A stretch of 44,538 nucleotides of DNA from a virus: the IMG/VR virus record IMGVR_UViG_3300030673_000013, positions 1 through 44,538 of that record; one strand, written 5' to 3'. The position numbers and the translations under genes were made by a program. Numbering within the stretch: position 1 is the stretch's first letter; the number at the start of each line of letters is the position of its first letter. Shown piece after piece: positions 2 to 41,960 of the stretch. The notes beneath the pieces were generated by a model that saw only the letters and a list, made by a program, of their open reading frames with translations, made no database searches and was not told where the DNA came from.

Positions 2-2797
2 ATCCTTGTAACCGGTGTCTACGACGCAGAGACAAAAGAAAAAACAGCTCTCGACGGGAACGGCGGGGTGCTGGTGAAAAAGATGCTCAAGAATCCCGGA
101 GTGACTCTCGTGGGAGCGAACATCATATACGACCTGGGGTGGCTCTGCAGCTCTTTCAAAATGAAGGTGAAAGAGGTCAAGTGTGGCCTCGTTGACGTGC
201 AGCAAGCGGAGTCGTGCATTGACGAGTACCAAAAGTACACACTCGATGCTCTCGCGTATAAATACTTAGGCGAGCGCAAAGGCGCGGAGCCTCTCATGGC
301 GTGGGCGAGAGCACACGGCCTCCAGGGTGACTTCCGTAAGCACTTGAAGCTTGCGTGGTACGGTCGAAAGGCTGAGGGAAAACTCACGTATATCGAAGCG
401 GTGCCTGATCTCGTGCGTGCGTACGTTATTTCTGACGCCGATCAGCCGGTGCGGATATGGGAAAAACAGTTCGCCGAGCTCCAGCACCTTGGTACACTCG
501 CGCCCGCTTTGCGGAAGTTCAAGCTCATCAAAGTGTCACTTGCCATGAAGCAGCGCGGAGTGCGCATCGACATGGAAGCGAAGGCCGCAAACTACGAAAT
601 AGTGAAGGGTCACCAAGACCGTCTTCTTTCTGACTTTACCGAGAAATATGGAAAAACAAACGTCGGCTCGCCTAAGCAGCTTGCGGAGCTTTTCGACCGA
701 ATGAACGTTCCGTATAGGCACAAGATTCGCATTAAAGGGTATATTGGCAGACAGGACTTCCAGAATCCAGACTTCGCAGACCAGAAAAAAAGGCTTAAGA
801 ACGTGTTCTCCGGGGTGCGTGTCAGGAAGGGTCAACTTCTCGTATACGTCAACAAACAGTACGCGTCGCGCACCGCACAGGACCTCACTGACGCAGGCTA
901 CCGGGTGACCAATAACCCGAACATCGACAAGGCAGCTCTTGACGCCGTCCGGCGCGATCATCCAGTCGCCCAGGCGGTTGTAGATCTCAAACAGGTCACG
1001 AGTGTCATCGACAAGTTCCTCGGTCCCAAGTTCGACCGATTCATCGTGAACGGCCGTATTCACGCGGACTTTAATATTTCAGGTGCGCGGCAAACCGGAC
1101 GATTCTCTTCTTGTTTCTCCGGGGATACCTGGGTAACAACACCTGTAGGCAGAAAAAGACTTCGTGACATCCAAGAAGGCGACGAGATTATAACCCATAC
1201 TGGTGCTGTGGCACGTGTTGCCGCTCTTATTGACAGAGGAGTGAAGCAAGCCTATAGATTGACAACGGAAGCACCTTCCAGTATAATTTGCACTAACGAC
1301 CACCCTTTCATGTCTGTAAAAGGATGGGAAGAGGTAGGCAAGTGCAAGGAGGTTTTGTATGTCGGCAAGGCAGGTTACGGACATCGTGCTAATTTCGGAG
1401 ATAGTGCGACTATTCCTCTCAGAGGAGAAGCCGACGGCTGCAGAAGTGGCTGCGAAGGTATCGGAGACGAATCAAACAGTCAGGAAGGTTCTGAGCGAAG
1501 CGCTTCCGTCGGATGTCTGGAAGGCAGAAAAAGCACTTCGGTACTCTCGTGGGAAGATAGAAGGACTGAACGCAATGCGGGGCAAGACATTGGAGAAGCA
1601 CCATCTTTGGAAAGGAGTTGTGTCGGACAACAAGGGTCACCTCACTATAAAGACGTCAGACGGGAAGAGGCAGTTTATTCACAGGTTGGTAATGGCAGAA
1701 GCTTTGGGTGTTCCTGTGGAAGTTCTTCGGCTGTTCGATGTGCATCACATAGACGGGGACGGGGAAAACAACGAGCTGGACAATCTTGTGCTGGTGACAA
1801 AGAAGGGTCACAGACGCTTACATCGGGTATGGTCACTGTTAAAAGACTCTCCCCTTTGGGAAAGGTACAAGTCTTTGATCTCTCCATAGATCATGAGGAC
1901 CACTCGTTTATCGCTAACGGCTACGCCGTGCATAACTGTAATCCGAATTTACAGCAGGTCCCATCAAAGACAGTACTTTTCAGAAAGACTGACCACGAGC
2001 TGAACCTTGCGAAACTATGCAGGGCGATCATCGTTCCTGATGAAGGGATGTGGCTCGGCAAGATGGACTACTCGGGACAAGAGAACGTCCTCCAGGCGCA
2101 CTTCGCTGTCGGAACGGGAGCGGACGCGATCAGGGCTGAGTACAACAATAACCCTGACTTCGACTTCCATACCTACATGGGGCATGTAACAGGTCTCACA
2201 GAAGAGTATGGTTACGATGCGGAGGGCAATGATCTAGGACGAAAGTACGCAAAGAATTGCGGATTCGGCCTTGGCTACGGAATGCAGATACCGACGATGA
2301 TGGAGTCGTTTGGCTGGGAGAAAGAGTTTGCCGAGAAGGTAACCGACGCGTACAACGACGCCGCTCCCTTCGTCCGAGAGACGATGGACGCGGTTTCTGA
2401 TGTAATTGTGAAGCGCGGGTTTATTCGCACCCTCGGTGGAAAGAAACTTCACCTGCGTAAATACAACGGTAAGGTCGACACAAAGAGTGCATACAAGGGC
2501 TACAATAAACTCATTCAAGGATCTGCTGCAGACATGATGGAAGAATCGCTCGTGCAGTTCTACGAGTCTGGCTACGACGATGTGTTCCCCCTTTACCTCA
2601 CGGTTCACGACGAGATTGACTTCGGTGTTCCGAAAACGAAAGAAGCTTTGAAGCGCCTCGCGGAAGTGAAATATGTCATGGAGCACTCACTTAAAATGGA
2701 TGTGCCGATATACGTCGACCCGGAACTCGGTATCCACTGGGGTGCCATGAAAGACTTCGAGAGAAATAAGGAGAAGTTTATGGAGAGAGTATCATGA
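2..2797 (+). CDS. Family A DNA polymerase with 3'-5' exonuclease, interrupted by an intein (5' partial)
   Basis: Replicative DNA polymerase. The frame is open from the first bases, so the true start lies upstream. The exonuclease domain is cut: an Exo II motif (GANIIYDLGWL, 116-148) and an Exo III-like AYVISDAD (418-441) are visible. Polymerase motif A (MDYSGQE), motif B (RKYAKNCGFGLGYG) and motif C (VHDE) follow the intein. By alignment with T7 and E. coli enzymes, the motif B position that controls dideoxynucleotide discrimination is Phe, as in E. coli Pol I (family knowledge). The conserved TGRFSS-CNPNLQQVP segment is broken by the 275-residue intein at 1112-1936; removing it restores a normal polymerase. 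The gene overlaps the next start by ATGA. Polymerase identity is certain; the length is unknown. Confidence 0.96.
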   Translation: MLVTGVYDAETKEKTALDGNGGVLVKKMLKNPGVTLVGANIIYDLGWLCSSFKMKVKEVKCGLVDVQQAESCIDEYQKYTLDALAYKYLGERKGAEPLMAWARAHGLQGDFRKHLKLAWYGRKAEGKLTYIEAVPDLVRAYVISDADQPVRIWEKQFAELQHLGTLAPALRKFKLIKVSLAMKQRGVRIDMEAKAANYEIVKGHQDRLLSDFTEKYGKTNVGSPKQLAELFDRMNVPYRHKIRIKGYIGRQDFQNPDFADQKKRLKNVFSGVRVRKGQLLVYVNKQYASRTAQDLTDAGYRVTNNPNIDKAALDAVRRDHPVAQAVVDLKQVTSVIDKFLGPKFDRFIVNGRIHADFNISGARQTGRFSSCFSGDTWVTTPVGRKRLRDIQEGDEIITHTGAVARVAALIDRGVKQAYRLTTEAPSSIICTNDHPFMSVKGWEEVGKCKEVLYVGKAGYGHRANFGDSATIPLRGEADGCRSGCEGIGDESNSQEGSERSASVGCLEGRKSTSVLSWEDRRTERNAGQDIGEAPSLERSCVGQQGSPHYKDVRREEAVYSQVGNGRSFGCSCGSSSAVRCASHRRGRGKQRAGQSCAGDKEGSQTLTSGMVTVKRLSPLGKVQVFDLSIDHEDHSFIANGYAVHNCNPNLQQVPSKTVLFRKTDHELNLAKLCRAIIVPDEGMWLGKMDYSGQENVLQAHFAVGTGADAIRAEYNNNPDFDFHTYMGHVTGLTEEYGYDAEGNDLGRKYAKNCGFGLGYGMQIPTMMESFGWEKEFAEKVTDAYNDAAPFVRETMDAVSDVIVKRGFIRTLGGKKLHLRKYNGKVDTKSAYKGYNKLIQGSAADMMEESLVQFYESGYDDVFPLYLTVHDEIDFGVPKTKEALKRLAEVKYVMEHSLKMDVPIYVDPELGIHWGAMKDFERNKEKFMERVS
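1346..1352 (+). promoter_or_regulatory. Internal Shine-Dalgarno site for the nested HNH gene
   Basis: AAGGAGG lies 6 nt before the ATG at 1359, an ideal bacterial ribosome binding site in the middle of the intein coding sequence. It decides the start of the nested endonuclease and supports independent translation. Confidence 0.8.
1359..1889 (+). CDS. HNH homing endonuclease nested out of frame inside the polymerase intein
   Basis: A 176-residue protein read in the +1 frame relative to the polymerase and lying wholly inside the intein (1112-1936). The HNH core is near residues 125-160: HHIDGDGENNELDNL followed by KKGHRRLH. The N-terminal third (SEEKPTAAEVAAKVSE and on) looks like a helix-turn-helix DNA-binding segment. 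It has its own ATG with a perfect AAGGAGG and its own TAG at 1887-1889, which falls inside the codons of intein block F. By family knowledge HNH enzymes of this kind drive homing of introns and inteins; here it would cut intein-free polymerase alleles. The out-of-frame placement is highly unusual. An assembly error is unlikely because start, binding site and stop are all present while the surrounding frame also stays open. Confidence 0.88.
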   Translation: MSARQVTDIVLISEIVRLFLSEEKPTAAEVAAKVSETNQTVRKVLSEALPSDVWKAEKALRYSRGKIEGLNAMRGKTLEKHHLWKGVVSDNKGHLTIKTSDGKRQFIHRLVMAEALGVPVEVLRLFDVHHIDGDGENNELDNLVLVTKKGHRRLHRVWSLLKDSPLWERYKSLISP

Positions 2798-34773: not shown

Positions 34774-36617
34774 AGCTTTTTCCCCTCCGCCCGCTGTGCA
34801 CTCTCACGCCTGGCACTCGTTCCGCGCGTCTTTTCTTTCGCGTGCTGTTCGAGTCTCGTGTATCCGCCTTCCTTACCAGGAATTTTCCCTGGGACCTTGA
34901 CCCCACCACCGGTTGCCCCACCACCTTCTGCGGTCGCTTTTGCGCTCGCCTTCGCACCGTCTATCTGAGCGTCAACAAGCTCCATCTCTTTCTCGTGTTT
35001 CTCTTTCGCTCTCGCGTCATTCTCTACTTGTTTTTCTCTCAATATCTTGAGTGTGTCGCTTCTGATACCAAGCCTGTCATCTCCGTAGGCAGCCGCGATG
35101 GTGACGCTAACATCGGTCGGAACACCTGATGCCGTAAGGTCGAACGTTCCCTTGCTCAAGTCCGCGAATATCTTCGCCCGCGCTTCTGCGTTTGCCGTGA
35201 TCGGATTGTCGAACTCTATTGTCGTGTAGGGAAGCGCCTTCATGATGTCTCGGTCTTTTCCGAGAGCGTTGATAATCTCAAGCATAGCAATATTCTTCAT
35301 CTGGAACGCGATATCGCGGTGGATGTACTTGACCGATTCCCACTGCCTCTCCAGTGCACCTTCTGTCTGGTCCCCGGATGCGAACGCACCACGCTCGGAC
35401 GACCAAAAGAGTTCTTCCGGGATATTAGCTTTGGCCGCAGCGTCCTGCCTCACCAGGCGAACGAGCGCCGGAACCTCGGCAAAATCCCGCTGAATGGCTT
35501 TGAGCTCCCCGATGACGTCCATCGATACCGGATTAAGCATAGATGCCTGGCGAACACGAAGGGTTGATTCGTCGGTGAGCTCGTCAAGACCTGTCGCGCC
35601 GTTCATGGCGTTTGTCATGTCGACATTAAATGAGTGCACCAGAATAGACATCTGGTTTATCATCGTCGGCACTGCCTTGATGACGCTTTCGTAGCTGCAT
35701 ACGGCCGGATACCAGCCGGATAGATCCGGGGCTCCCCATCCCATCGTCATGACTGCGCCCCAGTAGCCTGCCTGCGGGCGCGGCACAATACGAGCACACC
35801 GCTGACCTGACACGTCAGCCCCTAAGAACGGGATATAGTACTGCTCAGGGTACAAAAAATCCCGCGCTGTTGGGTTCCAGTTCGGGATGATAACGGTATT
35901 CCACTTGTCGAGTGCGACATATCGATCGATGCAATCCTTCCCTACGATGTCGTACTTAAGGAGTGTGTTCATATCAAGGCTCATCGACAGGGGTGAATCT
36001 TTCTTGAAGAAGGGAAACAACAGTCCGCCTGAGTACACAAGGCCATTTACCGTCGCCTGGGTAAGATAATTAGCAAGTCCTGTCTTGATTGCAGATTCGT
36101 TTACCGCGTCGAGCTGTTCTGGCTGGAGGCGCGGGTTCTTAATACGCACGCCGTTCAACAGAATCGAGTGACTCTTCTTATTGACAACGAGTGCCGGGAT
36201 TCCGCCCTGGCTATAAATGGATGCTGCCTCACCCGGATCAATCCACAGGTTCGGCGTCGTGACATTATTCATCATCGGATCTTGGTATGGCACACCCGAC
36301 ATATTTGACATGTTCATGATGTTGTCCCGAGCCCGGCTCAGGATAGGCTTTCCGTCAGCCTTGTAGCTCAAGATAGGTGCGACGAGCTCTGCGACAGATT
36401 TCCTGACGTCCGATAAACTCGTCAGCTCTTGTCCTGACTGCTTCATTATGAGCTTTTTCTGCTCGTTCACTATCGTGTCGGTGATGCGTTGATGCCGGGT
36501 TATGGACATTTCTTTGAAATGTTTCGCGTCGTTTACGACCCTGTGCCCTTCGCTGTCGCGACCTGTAGAGGTCTTCTCGCTATTTATGATTCGCCATATA
36601 TCACGGTAGTATGCCAT
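34770..36617 (-). CDS. Portal protein
   Basis: A 615-residue protein between the large terminase and the DUF2213 protease, the standard portal location. Central segments (NWNPTARDFLYPEQYYIPF, then a helical ELFWSSERGAFASGDQTEG stretch) match the DUF1073-like portal layout in which an SGDQ/SG-like loop precedes the stem helices. The C-terminus is a disordered Gly/Lys tail. There is no ribosome binding site before the ATG; a promoter ends 7 nt upstream, so it may be translated from a leaderless message. Confidence 0.8.
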   Translation of the reverse strand: MAYYRDIWRIINSEKTSTGRDSEGHRVVNDAKHFKEMSITRHQRITDTIVNEQKKLIMKQSGQELTSLSDVRKSVAELVAPILSYKADGKPILSRARDNIMNMSNMSGVPYQDPMMNNVTTPNLWIDPGEAASIYSQGGIPALVVNKKSHSILLNGVRIKNPRLQPEQLDAVNESAIKTGLANYLTQATVNGLVYSGGLLFPFFKKDSPLSMSLDMNTLLKYDIVGKDCIDRYVALDKWNTVIIPNWNPTARDFLYPEQYYIPFLGADVSGQRCARIVPRPQAGYWGAVMTMGWGAPDLSGWYPAVCSYESVIKAVPTMINQMSILVHSFNVDMTNAMNGATGLDELTDESTLRVRQASMLNPVSMDVIGELKAIQRDFAEVPALVRLVRQDAAAKANIPEELFWSSERGAFASGDQTEGALERQWESVKYIHRDIAFQMKNIAMLEIINALGKDRDIMKALPYTTIEFDNPITANAEARAKIFADLSKGTFDLTASGVPTDVSVTIAAAYGDDRLGIRSDTLKILREKQVENDARAKEKHEKEMELVDAQIDGAKASAKATAEGGGATGGGVKVPGKIPGKEGGYTRLEQHAKEKTRGTSARRESAQRAEGKKL

Positions 36618-36623
36618 ATATCG

Positions 36624-36653
36624 ATAGTATTGCGCATATTACATAATTGTCAA
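36624..36653 (-). promoter_or_regulatory. Leftward promoter directly before the portal ATG
   Basis: On the minus strand TTGACA (36653-36648), an 18-nt spacer and TACTAT (36629-36624). The expected start coincides with the A of ATG 36617, implying a leaderless mRNA. Confidence 0.65.
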
Positions 36654-36698
36654 GCGTTGTTTTATTTATAATACCGGCGGCGTACGAGGCCTTTCGGC

Positions 36699-39221
36699 TT
36701 ACAGCACCTGCGGTGAGAGGTCATAGAACCCCGAACTCATCTCTTTTACGTCGCCGTCTTCCTCAATATCGAGTCTCCGCGCCACGGTGAGCTTCCTGAT
36801 GTCGGCGAATTCCCGTCTGTTGCAAGCCAGAAAAAAGGCAATCAGGCGAACCCCGTCACATCGATGTATAGGGCTTGATGGTCCTTTTCCCTTCGGGATG
36901 TTCCCGTCTTTGTCCCGCTGTGCGAGCGATAGATCTTCTGCTGTCTCCCGCGCTCCCGCCGTCACGATAATCCTTTTTGTGAACAGCATCTTATTCACCA
37001 AGAATGCCGTATCCTCGACGAGCGGGTTCTTCGAGCGCATAATGAGGTGTACATTATTTCTTCTAAGCTCCCGAGTGAAATGTGTGAGCTGATCCTTTGC
37101 CGTCGTGTCCGGTATCATATATATCCGCTGTGAGGGGAAATCATACCTGACAACTCTCGGCGCGTCCCGCATCTCAGCAAACTCATAATTCTTTATGATG
37201 TGCATAATTCCGTCCCGCACCACCGCGACGCACCCGCGATGATACCCCTGGTTGAAGTCCTGTCCCCAGTACAACACTTCGTCCTGCGTGATCCTCCGGT
37301 CGAGTTCGTCGTTTATAAAGTTCCTGTCCCAGTCGAAATCCCCGAACACCTGCCCCTTGGAAATCGCGAGAAACTCACCTTCCAAATAGACCCGTCTCTC
37401 CCGCTCGTTGTAAATCTCGTACATCGAGCGCACATAGGTAGGATCAAGATGGTAGTTATCCGCCGTCCGGCCGCGCACTAAGGTGAATCCGGTCCCTGCT
37501 TTCTTGAACTGCGTGTAGAGCCGGTAGAGTCCCTTCTGTCCTTGCGAGGTGCTATTATGGACCAATATATCGCCTACGTTTGTTCTTACAAAAAACTCAT
37601 GGCTTCCCTCGACCTCAAGGTCATAGACCGGCACAAGACGGGCATCGGCTGTCTTTGTATCCTCCACACGCTCTGAACACCCTGCCGCACCGGCAAGTTT
37701 TCTTGATGTGACCGGTACCAGCTGTTGTATGTACCCCAAGAGTTCTTGACCTGTCACTACACTTCTGTGTACAGAATGCAGAAGGTCTTTTTGTTGTGTA
37801 GTCTCTTCCGCATACCGAGCATGTACAGGCATACAATCCTTTTCCGACACCTGCTCGTTTTTCTTGTGCCCTGTTTTTCTCCTGTTCATTAACGCGTAGT
37901 CTGGCACACTTGCCACACCGTTTAGCATTTTCTTTTCTTGACATGAACGTATCCCCGCAGTCGACGCAAACATGCTGACTAACCCGTTTTTTCCAAGCAC
38001 CTTTATAAGTACCTGCGCTAATCTGCCTTGCTCGTTCTCGCATACCCTGCTTTCGTTTTTCATACTGGCATTCTTTGCATAAGGATGAATTTGATGCTCT
38101 AGCGTATTGCTTCTTTCCGCACTGAGCACAAACATACTCAAAGTGTCGATGATGTCCGTGGTAGGTATTGTGTTCTTTTCCAGGAGTGCTCTCAAGGTTG
38201 TCAGGTTTATTATCACCCGTGTTACCGTTGACGTGATGCACAATATATCCATCTTGTACTTTTCCGTTGATACTTGCATATACTGCGACATGTAGTCCTT
38301 TACTTGGACCATTACCTGCATGACTTCTGTAATATCCTTGTTTCTTCGTTTTGCTATGTACCCAATAGTATGGTACTCCGTTAAAACAAACCGGAGCGTA
38401 TCCAAAGCCTGTTCCATCGACAACAGCAATCTCTTCCATTTTTCTGCCTCGTAGTATGACGATACCATACATATAGACGAGCTGTCAATGTACCTTGCTT
38501 CGGCCCAATCTTTCTTTGCTTCATCCCATACCGGATGCTCAGGAGTAAGAGATATACCGTGTAAATTTATAACCTCCCGAAAACCTGTCCGCCACTGACG
38601 CAAAACTCGTTTGTACCCGGATCTTGTCATAACTAGCATTCCCGGTACTATGGTTTCTATTTTTTTATACCCGTCTACTGTCAGTACTTCCGTCCCTGTG
38701 CCAAAGCACCCCATCATGATAAACGGACGCCTCATCCCAGGTATGATCTGCCTCGTGCGTTCGTTGACCGCCTTCACCGCCTCAAACGTCACATCCTCCG
38801 CAGCCGAAAGCCCCAGATCGTCCACTTCGTCGAGGATGCTTGCGCACACGTCGTAACCCATTATTTCGCCCGGATTCTGGAGCGGTGTTATCAATATGTC
38901 GACACTGCCAATTCGCAGGATGTTGTTCTTCGTGTCATGCTTGTAGACCGTCTTTGAGTTCTCAAGATCCTGTATGATATACGCGAGCGTCGTCTTCTCA
39001 AGGTGCCCGATGGTCACGCCCCCCAAAAGCACACGCGGCCGGTGACCTTCCTTATCAGTTTTCCCCTGCAGTATCGTCGAGATATACTCCGCAGCCTGTG
39101 CGTCCGCGCTTGTTTTACCTGCTCCATACCCAGCGACGTGCATGTGATAGCGCCGGTCGGGAAACAGAAAAGGAGCCTGCAAAAAGAGGCTCTGGTTCGG
39201 AAGGAGCATTTTTTTAATCAT
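36699..39221 (-). CDS. terL: Large terminase subunit (TerL) interrupted by an intein
   Basis: DNA packaging ATPase and nuclease, 840 residues including a 385-residue intein. Walker A is GYGAGKTS (residues 31-38) and Walker B is ASILDEVDD (about 127-135). The chain is cut after PFIMMG (residue 171) and resumes at STSQGQKGLY (residue 557), which is the ATPase coupling motif. The nuclease domain shows GQDFN, PDTTAKD and the HRCDGVRL acidic site near the C-terminus. The spliced protein is about 455 residues, a normal TerL size. It follows the small terminase with a 4-nt overlap. Confidence 0.93.
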   Translation of the reverse strand: MIKKMLLPNQSLFLQAPFLFPDRRYHMHVAGYGAGKTSADAQAAEYISTILQGKTDKEGHRPRVLLGGVTIGHLEKTTLAYIIQDLENSKTVYKHDTKNNILRIGSVDILITPLQNPGEIMGYDVCASILDEVDDLGLSAAEDVTFEAVKAVNERTRQIIPGMRRPFIMMGCFGTGTEVLTVDGYKKIETIVPGMLVMTRSGYKRVLRQWRTGFREVINLHGISLTPEHPVWDEAKKDWAEARYIDSSSICMVSSYYEAEKWKRLLLSMEQALDTLRFVLTEYHTIGYIAKRRNKDITEVMQVMVQVKDYMSQYMQVSTEKYKMDILCITSTVTRVIINLTTLRALLEKNTIPTTDIIDTLSMFVLSAERSNTLEHQIHPYAKNASMKNESRVCENEQGRLAQVLIKVLGKNGLVSMFASTAGIRSCQEKKMLNGVASVPDYALMNRRKTGHKKNEQVSEKDCMPVHARYAEETTQQKDLLHSVHRSVVTGQELLGYIQQLVPVTSRKLAGAAGCSERVEDTKTADARLVPVYDLEVEGSHEFFVRTNVGDILVHNSTSQGQKGLYRLYTQFKKAGTGFTLVRGRTADNYHLDPTYVRSMYEIYNERERRVYLEGEFLAISKGQVFGDFDWDRNFINDELDRRITQDEVLYWGQDFNQGYHRGCVAVVRDGIMHIIKNYEFAEMRDAPRVVRYDFPSQRIYMIPDTTAKDQLTHFTRELRRNNVHLIMRSKNPLVEDTAFLVNKMLFTKRIIVTAGARETAEDLSLAQRDKDGNIPKGKGPSSPIHRCDGVRLIAFFLACNRREFADIRKLTVARRLDIEEDGDVKEMSSGFYDLSPQVL
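37554..38708 (-). other. Intein in the large terminase (385 residues), splicing motifs intact
   Basis: Runs from Cys172 (codon 38708-38706) to Asn556 (37556-37554), with Ser+1. Block A is CFGTGTEVLTVDG, block B has TxxH as SLTPEHPVWDE, block F is VYDLEVEGSHEFFV and block G is LVHN. All splicing residues are present. The middle of the intein frame (about residues 90-360) has no endonuclease motif but stays open for about 270 codons across the nested HNH gene. Confidence 0.92.
37621..38439 (-). CDS. HNH endonuclease with four zinc ribbons, nested out of frame inside the terminase intein
   Basis: A 272-residue protein in the +2 frame relative to terL, wholly inside the intein. The start at 38439 has GAGG 7 nt upstream; an ATG 11 codons earlier (38472) has none. 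The HNH core is HHVNGNTGDNKPDNLE followed by an NTYHGHH segment, as in intron- and intein-borne HNH enzymes. Four CxxC...CxxC zinc ribbons follow (CAQCGKK, CVDCGDT, CSVCGRD, CRCGRV with their partner pairs), probably DNA-binding. The stop TGA lies inside the codons of intein block F. It is not similar by eye to the HNH in the polymerase intein. Confidence 0.87.
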   Translation of the reverse strand: MEEIAVVDGTGFGYAPVCFNGVPYYWVHSKTKKQGYYRSHAGNGPSKGLHVAVYASINGKVQDGYIVHHVNGNTGDNKPDNLESTPGKEHNTYHGHHRHFEYVCAQCGKKQYARASNSSLCKECQYEKRKQGMRERARQISAGTYKGAWKKRVSQHVCVDCGDTFMSRKENAKRCGKCARLRVNEQEKNRAQEKRAGVGKGLYACTCSVCGRDYTTKRPSAFCTQKCSDRSRTLGVHTTAGTGHIKKTCRCGRVFRACGGYKDSRCPSCAGL

Positions 39222-40066
39222 AGATCTTCGACCTCGACTCCGTCTTCCATATGCGTTCTTCGCTCATTCCCTTCATTTCCGGTCTTATTGAGCTCCCGCT
39301 TCATGATTTTTTTGACCATCATGTTGTCGTCTTCCTTGAACGCGCTTTCATCCTCTAGCGTTGACGCGGAGATTTCCACATTCTTCATCGCTTCAAACTC
39401 TTCCCTCGACACTGGCACAAAGAAAATATTGAGGGCATCGCCTTCTTTTTCCTCTTCGTTGCTTCCTTCGGCGAGCATTTCATTCTTAAGCTGGAGCGCT
39501 TTAAGCTGCAACGTGATCTTGTCTTTGTCCCACCCCTTAGTCGGTTTCTTTGTTTTCTCGACTACTTTCGTTATCACGATCGGCTTCTGGGGCCTTGGGC
39601 TCTTTGGAGGTGGTGGAAGCTTAGGCGGCTTCTTATCTTTATTCCTGATGTCGAAGGTGTCGTCGCCGAACGGATCTATTTCCTCAGCCGGTTCGTCCGG
39701 GGCTGCTTCTTCCTCGGGCATTTCCTCAAGTTGTATTTCTTCGCTCGGGAGGGAAGGTGCCATGAGTCCTTCGTCCTCTGAAATCTCATCGTCGGGGAAG
39801 TTCATTTCCCTCGTGATGCGATCCACTTCGCCAAGATCGTCGACGAACTTACGCGCCTTCAACATTTTCGTTTCTTTCTTGTACGTGTCGTCATCAAGGA
39901 CCATAACACGCATCTTTCCTATCACGCCGTTGAAGTCGAGCGCGATACTATCCGAATACGTTCTGCCATATGCCTTGATACAGTTCTTTACGAGGAGCTT
40001 AAAATAGTCTGCATGTTCTTCGCTCGGCAAGTGAGCGAGTGTGAGTTCGTTTTGTGGTTCCGCCAT
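39218..40066 (-). CDS. Putative small terminase subunit
   Basis: A 282-residue protein upstream of and overlapping terL by 4 nt. Globular N-terminus, a long acidic and Pro-rich linker (DDEISEDEGL, PPKLPPPPKSPRPQKP), a helical segment (DKITLQLKALQLKNEMLAEG) and a charged tail. DNA-binding motifs are not obvious, so the call is positional. ATG 40066 is chosen; the in-frame GTG upstream falls inside the promoter. There is no proper ribosome site, and a promoter ends 8 nt upstream, suggesting leaderless translation. Confidence 0.55.
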   Translation of the reverse strand: MAEPQNELTLAHLPSEEHADYFKLLVKNCIKAYGRTYSDSIALDFNGVIGKMRVMVLDDDTYKKETKMLKARKFVDDLGEVDRITREMNFPDDEISEDEGLMAPSLPSEEIQLEEMPEEEAAPDEPAEEIDPFGDDTFDIRNKDKKPPKLPPPPKSPRPQKPIVITKVVEKTKKPTKGWDKDKITLQLKALQLKNEMLAEGSNEEEKEGDALNIFFVPVSREEFEAMKNVEISASTLEDESAFKEDDNMMVKKIMKRELNKTGNEGNERRTHMEDGVEVEDL

Positions 40067-40442: not shown

Positions 40443-40473
40443 GCACTATTTTACTGACATCCCACTGACATCT

Positions 40474-40612
40474 TGTGTGGCACGGGATGCGCATGGTTTA
40501 TGTGTGGCACGGGATGCAACAAGTTTTTTGTGTGGCACAGGGTTCAACAAGTTTTTTGTGTAGCACGGGATGCAACAAGTTTTTTGTGTGGCACGGGATG
40601 CAACAAGTTTTT
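40474..40612 (+). repeat. Five tandem 28-bp repeats
   Basis: Units at 40474 (27 bp, diverged end), 40501, 40529, 40557 and 40585. The consensus is TGTGTGGCACGGGATGCAAC followed by AAGTTTTT. Copies 2 and 5 are identical, 3 and 4 carry a few substitutions. The array lies between the gene at 40867 and the small RNA promoters. Confidence 0.92.
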
Positions 40613-40703
40613 TGTTGACAGACATTTTATATTGAGAATTGCGCGCCGGGCCCGGTTCACCCCCCCAAAAAAATTCTTTCTGGTACATTTTCTGGCAGGA
40701 CTT

Positions 40704-41830: not shown

Positions 41831-41883
41831 GTATCGTGTGTATCGTGTGTATACATGTATCGTGTGTATACATGTATCGTGTG
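41831..41883 (+). repeat. Iteron-like 17-bp tandem repeats
   Basis: GTATCGTGTGTATACAT at 41840 and 41857, identical, with partial copies before (41831) and after (41874). Each full unit holds the palindrome TGTATACA. Confidence 0.88.
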
Positions 41884-41960
41884 TTCCTACTGTACTGATT
41901 GCATTATGTATATCTTTCGTATCGTTTATATCATTGGTATCCTATACAACAAAAAAACGC

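Follow-up and report, generated by a model that had tools for sequence, protein, structure and literature searches.

The gene for the large terminase subunit (terL) of an uncultivated-virus entry in IMG/VR (record IMGVR_UViG_3300030673_000013, positions 1 to 44,538; this whole stretch of 44,538 nucleotides is referred to here as the window) is interrupted by an intein that carries, nested out of frame within its coding sequence, a gene for an HNH protein with four zinc ribbons. This is very probably a mobile terL intein whose homing endonuclease has a gene of its own, overprinted on the intein in the -1 frame (offset 2), and is not a domain of the intein. In textbook inteins, the homing endonuclease is a domain of the same polypeptide. 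A preliminary sequence-only reading of the window had described the arrangement as a curiosity of one phage; it is a recurrent class found over diverse phages.

The Terminase Intein and the Gene Nested Within It

The features of the interrupted gene are collected in Table 1. The insert carries the complete set of class-1 intein motifs, namely Cys1 (TerL residue 172), T55-P-E-H58, VHN385, and Ser557 at the +1 position, and the class-1 splicing motifs are conserved across an alignment of 34 inteins. Both the interval and the motifs assigned by the sequence-only reading (37554-38708, with Cys1, TxxH, VHN, and Ser+1) were recovered exactly. Domain matches are to Pfam Hint_2, Vint, and Intein_splicing and to NCBIfam intein_Cterm, and removal of the intein leaves an extein of 455 amino acids with the junction ...RRPFIMMG/STSQGQKG.... 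In the AlphaFold model, residues 1-80 and 358-385 from the two ends form a HINT domain with a predicted local distance difference test score (pLDDT) of about 95; the closest Foldseek matches are the gp41-1 and Mtu RecA inteins (probability 1.00, E values down to 4e-5). Residues 182-349, within the HNH overlap, have pLDDT <50. On its motifs and predicted fold the insert reads as a complete class-1 intein, which would be expected to splice.

The nested gene was likewise found as previously described, a 272-residue HNH protein with four zinc ribbons in the +2 frame; it opens at ATG 38439, at offset 2, and matches HNH_3 with E=8e-11. An alternative upstream ATG at 38472 would give a protein of 283 amino acids. 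A GAGG motif lying 7 nt before ATG 38439 supports independent translation from that codon, and motifs of the AGGAG/GGAGG type precede most window genes at a similar distance; RNA folding around the HNH start shows nothing unusual (z=-0.92). The HNH stop codon abuts the first codons of splicing block F, so that the nested gene occupies the gap between HINT-N and HINT-C, the usual seat of an in-frame endonuclease domain; here, the HNH is not in frame with the HINT domain. The AlphaFold model of the HNH protein has a pLDDT of 78. A sequence search of the PDB with this protein returned weak matches to RNA-polymerase zinc ribbons alone, and the genome has no match to the HNH profile PF01844, as this protein belongs to the HNH_3 family.

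Phage group I introns often carry HNH endonucleases, and an RNA intron holding the HNH gene, removed before translation, would make the intein frame a coincidence. This is extremely improbable: Rfam gives no match up to E=1 within 36600-39300, the intein blocks are codon-exact with Cys1 and Asn/Ser and form a HINT domain in the AlphaFold model, and an open TerL frame would be needless.

Nor is the open overlap accidental. With uniform bases, the probability that a frame stays open over 273 codons is (61/64)^273=2.0e-6, the two in a million quoted by the sequence-only reading, and stricter shuffle nulls agree. Permuting synonymous codons with the HNH protein kept gives an expectation of 5.25 stops in the intein frame, compared with 0 observed (P=0.0003); when the intein-frame protein is kept, 10.9 stops are expected in the HNH frame, again with 0 observed, and stop-free shuffles number 0/20,000. 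The third sense frame of the overlap contains 21 stops. Since both codon-preserving nulls reject the open overlap, a chance origin is excluded.

Table 1. Coordinates of the interrupted terL gene, its intein, and the nested HNH gene in the window.
Feature	Position	Strand	Evidence or remarks
terL open reading frame with intein, 840 amino acids	36699..39221	minus	phrog_2 terminase large subunit, E=2.8e-19
N-extein, TerL residues 1-171; Walker A GYGAGKT, Walker B ILDEVDD, end FIMMG	38709..39221	minus	comparison with intein-free L002-L004
Intein, 385 amino acids (TerL residues 172-556)	37554..38708	minus	splicing motifs, domain matches, HINT model
Block B TPEH, intein residues 55-58	38535..38546	minus	T55 and H58 conserved (34-intein alignment)
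C-terminal splicing blocks F/G (VYDLEVEGSHEFFVRTNVGDILVHN)	37554..37628	minus	NCBIfam intein_Cterm, E=3.1e-5
C-extein, beginning STSQGQKGLYRL	36699..37553	minus	comparison with terL of relatives
Nested out-of-frame HNH gene, ATG start, 272 amino acids, frame offset 2 (= -1 frame) to TerL, TGA stop 37621-37623	37621..38439	minus	Pfam HNH_3, E=8e-11; PHROG HNH families; open-frame statistics
GAGG Shine-Dalgarno-like motif, 7 nt before ATG 38439	38447..38450	minus	
HNH_3 catalytic core, HNH residues 48-90 (...YIVHHVNGNTGDNKPDN...EH)	38170..38298	minus	
Zinc ribbon 1 (CAQC...CKEC)	38068..38130	minus	
Zinc ribbon 2 (CVDC...CGKC)	37906..37968	minus	
Zinc ribbon 3 (CSVC...CTQKC)	37759..37821	minus	
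Zinc ribbon 4 (CRC...CPSC)	37633..37695	minus	

Intein-Free Relatives

Relatives of the window TerL in IMG/VR comprise three intein-free alleles (L002-L004) and a sister (L001), with C-extein identities to L001/L002/L003/L004 of 66/65/57/52%. The sequence-only reading had proposed that related phages be compared for alleles lacking the intein, and the terL genes of L002-L004 are indeed uninterrupted at the same codons as the window insertion. In L001, the window's site is also empty and an intein lies instead at Walker B; it too contains a nested out-of-frame open reading frame (ORF) for an HNH-zinc-ribbon protein, of 241 amino acids and 27% identical to the window HNH. The pairing of these two proteins in the tree (window_N and L001_N) was a long-branch join and was not used. 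A wider scan with the window TerL added neither a relative nor another intein at the window's site, and a single-protein IMG/VR scan with the window HNH yielded no relative. The HNH relatives described below were reached via terL first and then via alignments, a nine-sequence HNH alignment being too diverse as a search query.

A Widespread Class of Nested-Gene Inteins

IMG/VR, GenBank phages, and bacterial genomes served as sources for at least 95 loci from HNH searches (an HNH-alignment scan, earlier loci, and a genome scan), which were classified by script; among annotated phages, the entry point was HNH matches under 'terminase large subunit' or in unannotated records. Among the matches listed, 54 of 95 are nested, all at offset 2, 40 are not nested, and one (L012) is an in-frame locus of another type; in-frame members of the TerL-intein HNH family number 0. 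HNH_3 is present in all 47 aligned family members. The host of the nested HNH is TerL in 35 of 36 scanned cases, and Intein_splicing is matched in 33 of the 36. The 48 inteins delimited by script all have Cys1, a C-terminal [HSG]N, and a +1 Cys or Ser, and TxxH is found in 47; within them, the HNH frame opens 47-98 codons past Cys1 and closes 12-32 codons short of the end of the intein.

The class was also recovered by a scan of IMG/VR that is independent of the HNH, in which the query consisted only of the intein C-block and the TerL residues that follow it. Of its 78 classifiable loci, 77 are nested at offset 2, one is a mini-intein, and none is in frame. The mini-intein (L157:1974-3644) is 128 amino acids long, lacks an HNH, and occupies the same terL nuclease site (DNH/CIAEG...VHN/CIDATRY); as a natural mini-intein allele it indicates that the intein frame can do without the overlap region. 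The union of the scans, which includes some contigs twice, amounts to at least 129 nested loci, falling into at least 84 clusters at 95% identity and at least 66 at 70%.

The same structure is found in Rhodobacteraceae phage LS06-2018-MD07, Tetrasphaera phage TJE1, Acinetobacter phage Highwayman, and a gut phage. Because the nested loci include cultured phages (TJE1 and Highwayman) as well as bacterial assemblies and many independent metagenomes, in addition to the Rhodobacteraceae phage record OP947163, assembly error is excluded. The GenBank records of TJE1, Highwayman, and LS06-2018-MD07 annotate only terL, and nested inteins are thus common in phage terminase genes yet unannotated. Three PHROG families that bear the name terminase large subunit (phrog_30251, phrog_19299, and phrog_38) match these proteins in their intein portion, so that some family models contain intein and overlap-linker sequence that has gone unrecognised. 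A canonical in-frame HNH intein of another type lies in the dCTP deaminase of Aphanizomenon phage CL131 (L012:2688-4394), annotated as dCTP deaminase only.

The existence of such canonical inteins, exemplified by L012, lends some plausibility to the view that the window holds an ordinary in-frame HNH intein put out of frame by sequencing error or mutation. This is nevertheless highly improbable. Both frames are open through the whole overlap and on to an intact intein C-block, at least 129 loci share a uniform offset and borders with no in-frame relative among the matches listed, and stop avoidance together with codon-position bias (see below) indicates that both frames are maintained. Homologues with the HNH fused in frame, which the sequence-only reading had named as the finding that would overturn it, number 0 among the 54 nested and 40 non-nested loci listed and 0/78 in the intein scan. 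Its judgement that error or chance is very unlikely is upheld by the shuffle nulls and by recurrence across cultured phages, bacterial assemblies, and independent metagenomes, and its interpretation of a functional-looking intein with an independent out-of-frame HNH gene is supported by the data.

Selection on the Two Frames

All 55 nested HNH genes have 0 stops in the intein frame, where their own synonymous shuffles predict 2.9 each. In the equivalent frame of 39 non-nested homologues, the mean is 7.8 stops versus 8.0 expected, and no gene (0/39) is free of them; in nested and non-nested sets alike, about 20 stops fall in the other sense frame. The stop test is partly circular in that an open frame defines 'nested', whereas the flanking intact intein and the C-block scan are free of this circularity. 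Offset 2 is constant in the TerL-intein HNH family because it is the sole sense frame that can be cleared of stops.

Differences between near pairs concentrate at position 3 of the HNH codons, with values at positions 1/2/3 of 0.019/0.048/0.166 for L091/L092 and 0.205/0.146/0.402 for L016/L017, and the HNH frame has the higher mean amino-acid identity, 58% versus 41% in the intein frame (105 non-independent pairs). By these substitution patterns, constraint in the overlap falls on the HNH frame, and conservation in the intein-frame linker (e.g., NGT..KK..NGI) may be read as the shadow of HNH codons.

A uniform -1 relation between the HNH frame and its host throughout the listed loci is also what programmed -1 ribosomal frameshifting from TerL would give, the product then being a fusion of N-extein, HINT-N, and HNH and not an independent protein; moreover, a slippery-type heptamer lies upstream of the HNH core in 26 of the 54 nested loci listed. 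However, the window lacks a slippery heptamer in the usable stretch, the heptamers of other loci lie at varying positions, as expected of AT-rich DNA, and stop frequencies alone account for the -1 preference, the nested gene of a second intein in the window (in the DNA polymerase gene, described below) having a +1 offset. The window HNH also has its own GAGG-ATG, and free-standing homologues begin at an ATG of their own, in most cases with a Shine-Dalgarno motif. Frameshifting is therefore improbable as the means of expression.

Proposed Mechanism

With the HNH gene independently expressed, the intein could operate as follows. The TerL frame would be read through to give N-extein, HINT-N, an unstructured linker of about 270 residues, HINT-C, and C-extein, and the intein would then excise itself to leave active TerL. 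Splicing is proposed because the catalytic residues are intact, a HINT fold is predicted, and intein-free alleles exist. Ribosomes entering separately at the internal GAGG...ATG (38439) would produce a soluble HNH-zinc-ribbon endonuclease, which in a co-infecting phage may cut intein-free terL near the insertion site, whereupon repair would copy in the intein together with its gene. Cutting and homing are proposed because the distribution is patchy and free-standing relatives lie beside the intact site of related inteins. Selection on the overlap would preserve the HNH protein and, in the intein frame, would act mainly to keep out stops.

Several points weigh against this scheme. Translation, splicing, and cutting are each inferred from sequence, and translation is the weakest step. 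A clear Shine-Dalgarno motif precedes 18 of 54 nested genes compared with 34 of 40 non-nested genes among the matches listed, which leaves internal initiation unexplained in some lineages. Bacteroidota rarely use Shine-Dalgarno motifs, and perhaps several of the lineages infect these bacteria; one locus (L096) is in a Bacteroides assembly. The window HNH is itself divergent, with <30% identity to the others and a long tree branch, so that the population evidence comes mostly from relatives at another terL site. Finally, the best PDB match of the HNH model in Foldseek, I-HmuI, has a probability of 0.99 and is weak by other measures (E=0.07, template modelling score 0.23 by query).

Nested, Split, and Free-Standing Forms

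The HNH family is represented in three settings, by genes nested in cis inteins, by genes between split-intein halves, and by free-standing genes. In the split setting, represented by 13 loci among the matches listed (L039, L040, L043, L049, L054, L055, L056, L062, L065, L072, L081, L089, and L090), the HNH lies between an ORF for TerL-HINT-N and a separate ORF for HINT-C and C-extein. Two further loci, L050 and L058, resemble these, their HINT-C having missed the pattern. Among the 21 free-standing HNH genes listed without an intein, at least 12 (L024, L025, L031, L047, L048, L063, L064, L077, L084, L093, L006, and L008) have their start no more than about 120 bp from an intact DHxxDAxRY codon block. 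This block, in the C-terminal nuclease of TerL, is the insertion site of most nested inteins, and a position beside its intact form is as expected of the free-standing enzymes if they target it.

Mapped on the HNH tree, nesting requires 10 changes of state, of which well-supported branches force at least 7; for the three states taken together the number is 15. The forced changes imply that nesting was repeatedly gained or lost, with split and nested forms interleaved, and an evolutionary link of the nested class to split inteins is likely.

Both frames might be translated without the HNH protein homing into terL, if it were a packaging nuclease or a passenger that the intein merely tolerates. 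Terminases can be assisted by HNH proteins when phage DNA is packaged (PMC11855218), and free-standing homologous HNH genes lie directly behind terL. The presence of intein-free, mini (L157), split, and nested alleles in a patchy pattern at conserved terL codons resembles homing instead, as does the gain or loss of nesting, forced at least 7 times, and a packaging or passenger role is unlikely, though the least improbable of the alternatives weighed here.

Intein configurations have been reviewed as full-length, mini, and split (PMC7765530). Inteins with a nested gene may constitute a fourth widespread configuration, which a homing gene entered repeatedly out of frame and which forms an intermediate linking free-standing HNH genes with cis and split inteins, stops in the linker being able to yield the split form; we put this forward tentatively, at slightly less than an even chance. 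The three settings of the family make the colonisation of inteins by homing genes, and the origin of split inteins, testable from existing sequences.

Comparison With Known Systems

Full-length inteins of the PI-SceI type share with the window intein a HINT domain, endonuclease sequence between HINT-N and HINT-C, and insertion at conserved codons of an essential gene. They differ in that the endonuclease here is in another frame and would be separately translated, the corresponding stretch of the intein frame being predicted to be an unstructured linker. A separate overlapping gene would free the endonuclease from splicing and let each protein fold alone, at the price of a stop-free overlap of 160-310 codons. 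Split inteins in 'fractured genes', reportedly described by Dassa et al. in 2009, are said to have a homing endonuclease gene between their halves; an independent endonuclease gene at the HINT-N/HINT-C junction is likewise seen in relatives of the window HNH, whereas the window intein is one continuous ORF, which would splice in cis, with the HNH nested in it. Endonucleases of group I introns of the I-HmuI type resemble the nested protein in their HNH_3 core and in an ORF independent of the host frame, I-HmuI being also its best, weak fold match (E=0.07); the vehicle here, however, is a protein intein and not a ribozyme, and several zinc ribbons lie C-terminal to the core.

The closest published parallels are the ShiLan domain and the Pacc40 insertion, out-of-frame HNH genes in phage methylase genes that are explicitly non-intein (Arsenault, Gosselin, and Gogarten, 2025, PMC11855218). 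Common to them and the present class are an HNH with zinc fingers out of frame, a host ORF that is kept open, and a patchy distribution. Unlike these insertions, which have no splicing motifs and are thought to be retained in the protein, the elements described here are complete predicted inteins within an essential gene and form a far larger class. Mycobacteriophage TerL inteins resemble those described here in lying near the ATPase motifs and at several insertion sites (PMC5050341). They are described with encoded homing endonucleases, and in the parts of that account consulted no out-of-frame gene is reported (PMC5050341); the majority of nested relatives here lie instead at the C-terminal nuclease DHxxDAxRY site.

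In the literature searched, no intein was described whose endonuclease gene lies out of frame; outside that search was the preprint of Gosselin et al. (2025), which PMC11855218 cites and which deals with 'non-canonical architecture' in inteins of actinobacteriophages. The nested-gene intein is apparently an overlooked design for a mobile genetic element. It also supplies a large natural set of paired overlapping genes, one frame of each being a mere linker, that is useful for studies of overprinting.

The Polymerase Intein and Other Features of the Window

The DNA polymerase A gene of the window contains an intein at 68-2797 on the plus strand, with junctions SS/CFSGDT...AVHN/CNPNLQQ and a nested HNH ORF at 1359-1889 (plus strand, offset 1) preceded by AAGGAGG before its ATG. 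The earlier observation that the arrangement occurs twice in one phage was thus correct, but the offset of this second gene is 1. Its overlap is expected to contain 10.6 stops and has 0, with 0/20,000 shuffles stop-free. The two HNH proteins had been judged unrelated beyond the core, in agreement with a BLASTP match confined to 74 residues round the HNH core (26% identity, E=2e-5). Since the polymerase case has another frame and another HNH type, the nested arrangement arose at least two times.

When relatives of the HNH in the polymerase intein were sought by a scan, 3 weak loci emerged. Its relatives include HNH proteins whose annotations place them within or next to phage DNA polymerase genes, some of them as intron-mobility endonucleases, which suggests that vehicles may have been swapped for one target. 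Elsewhere in the window, five 28-bp tandem repeats (TTGTGTGGCACGGGATGCAACAAGTTTT) occupy intergenic positions 40473-40615, upstream of the packaging genes, and 17-bp repeats are found at 41839-41884.

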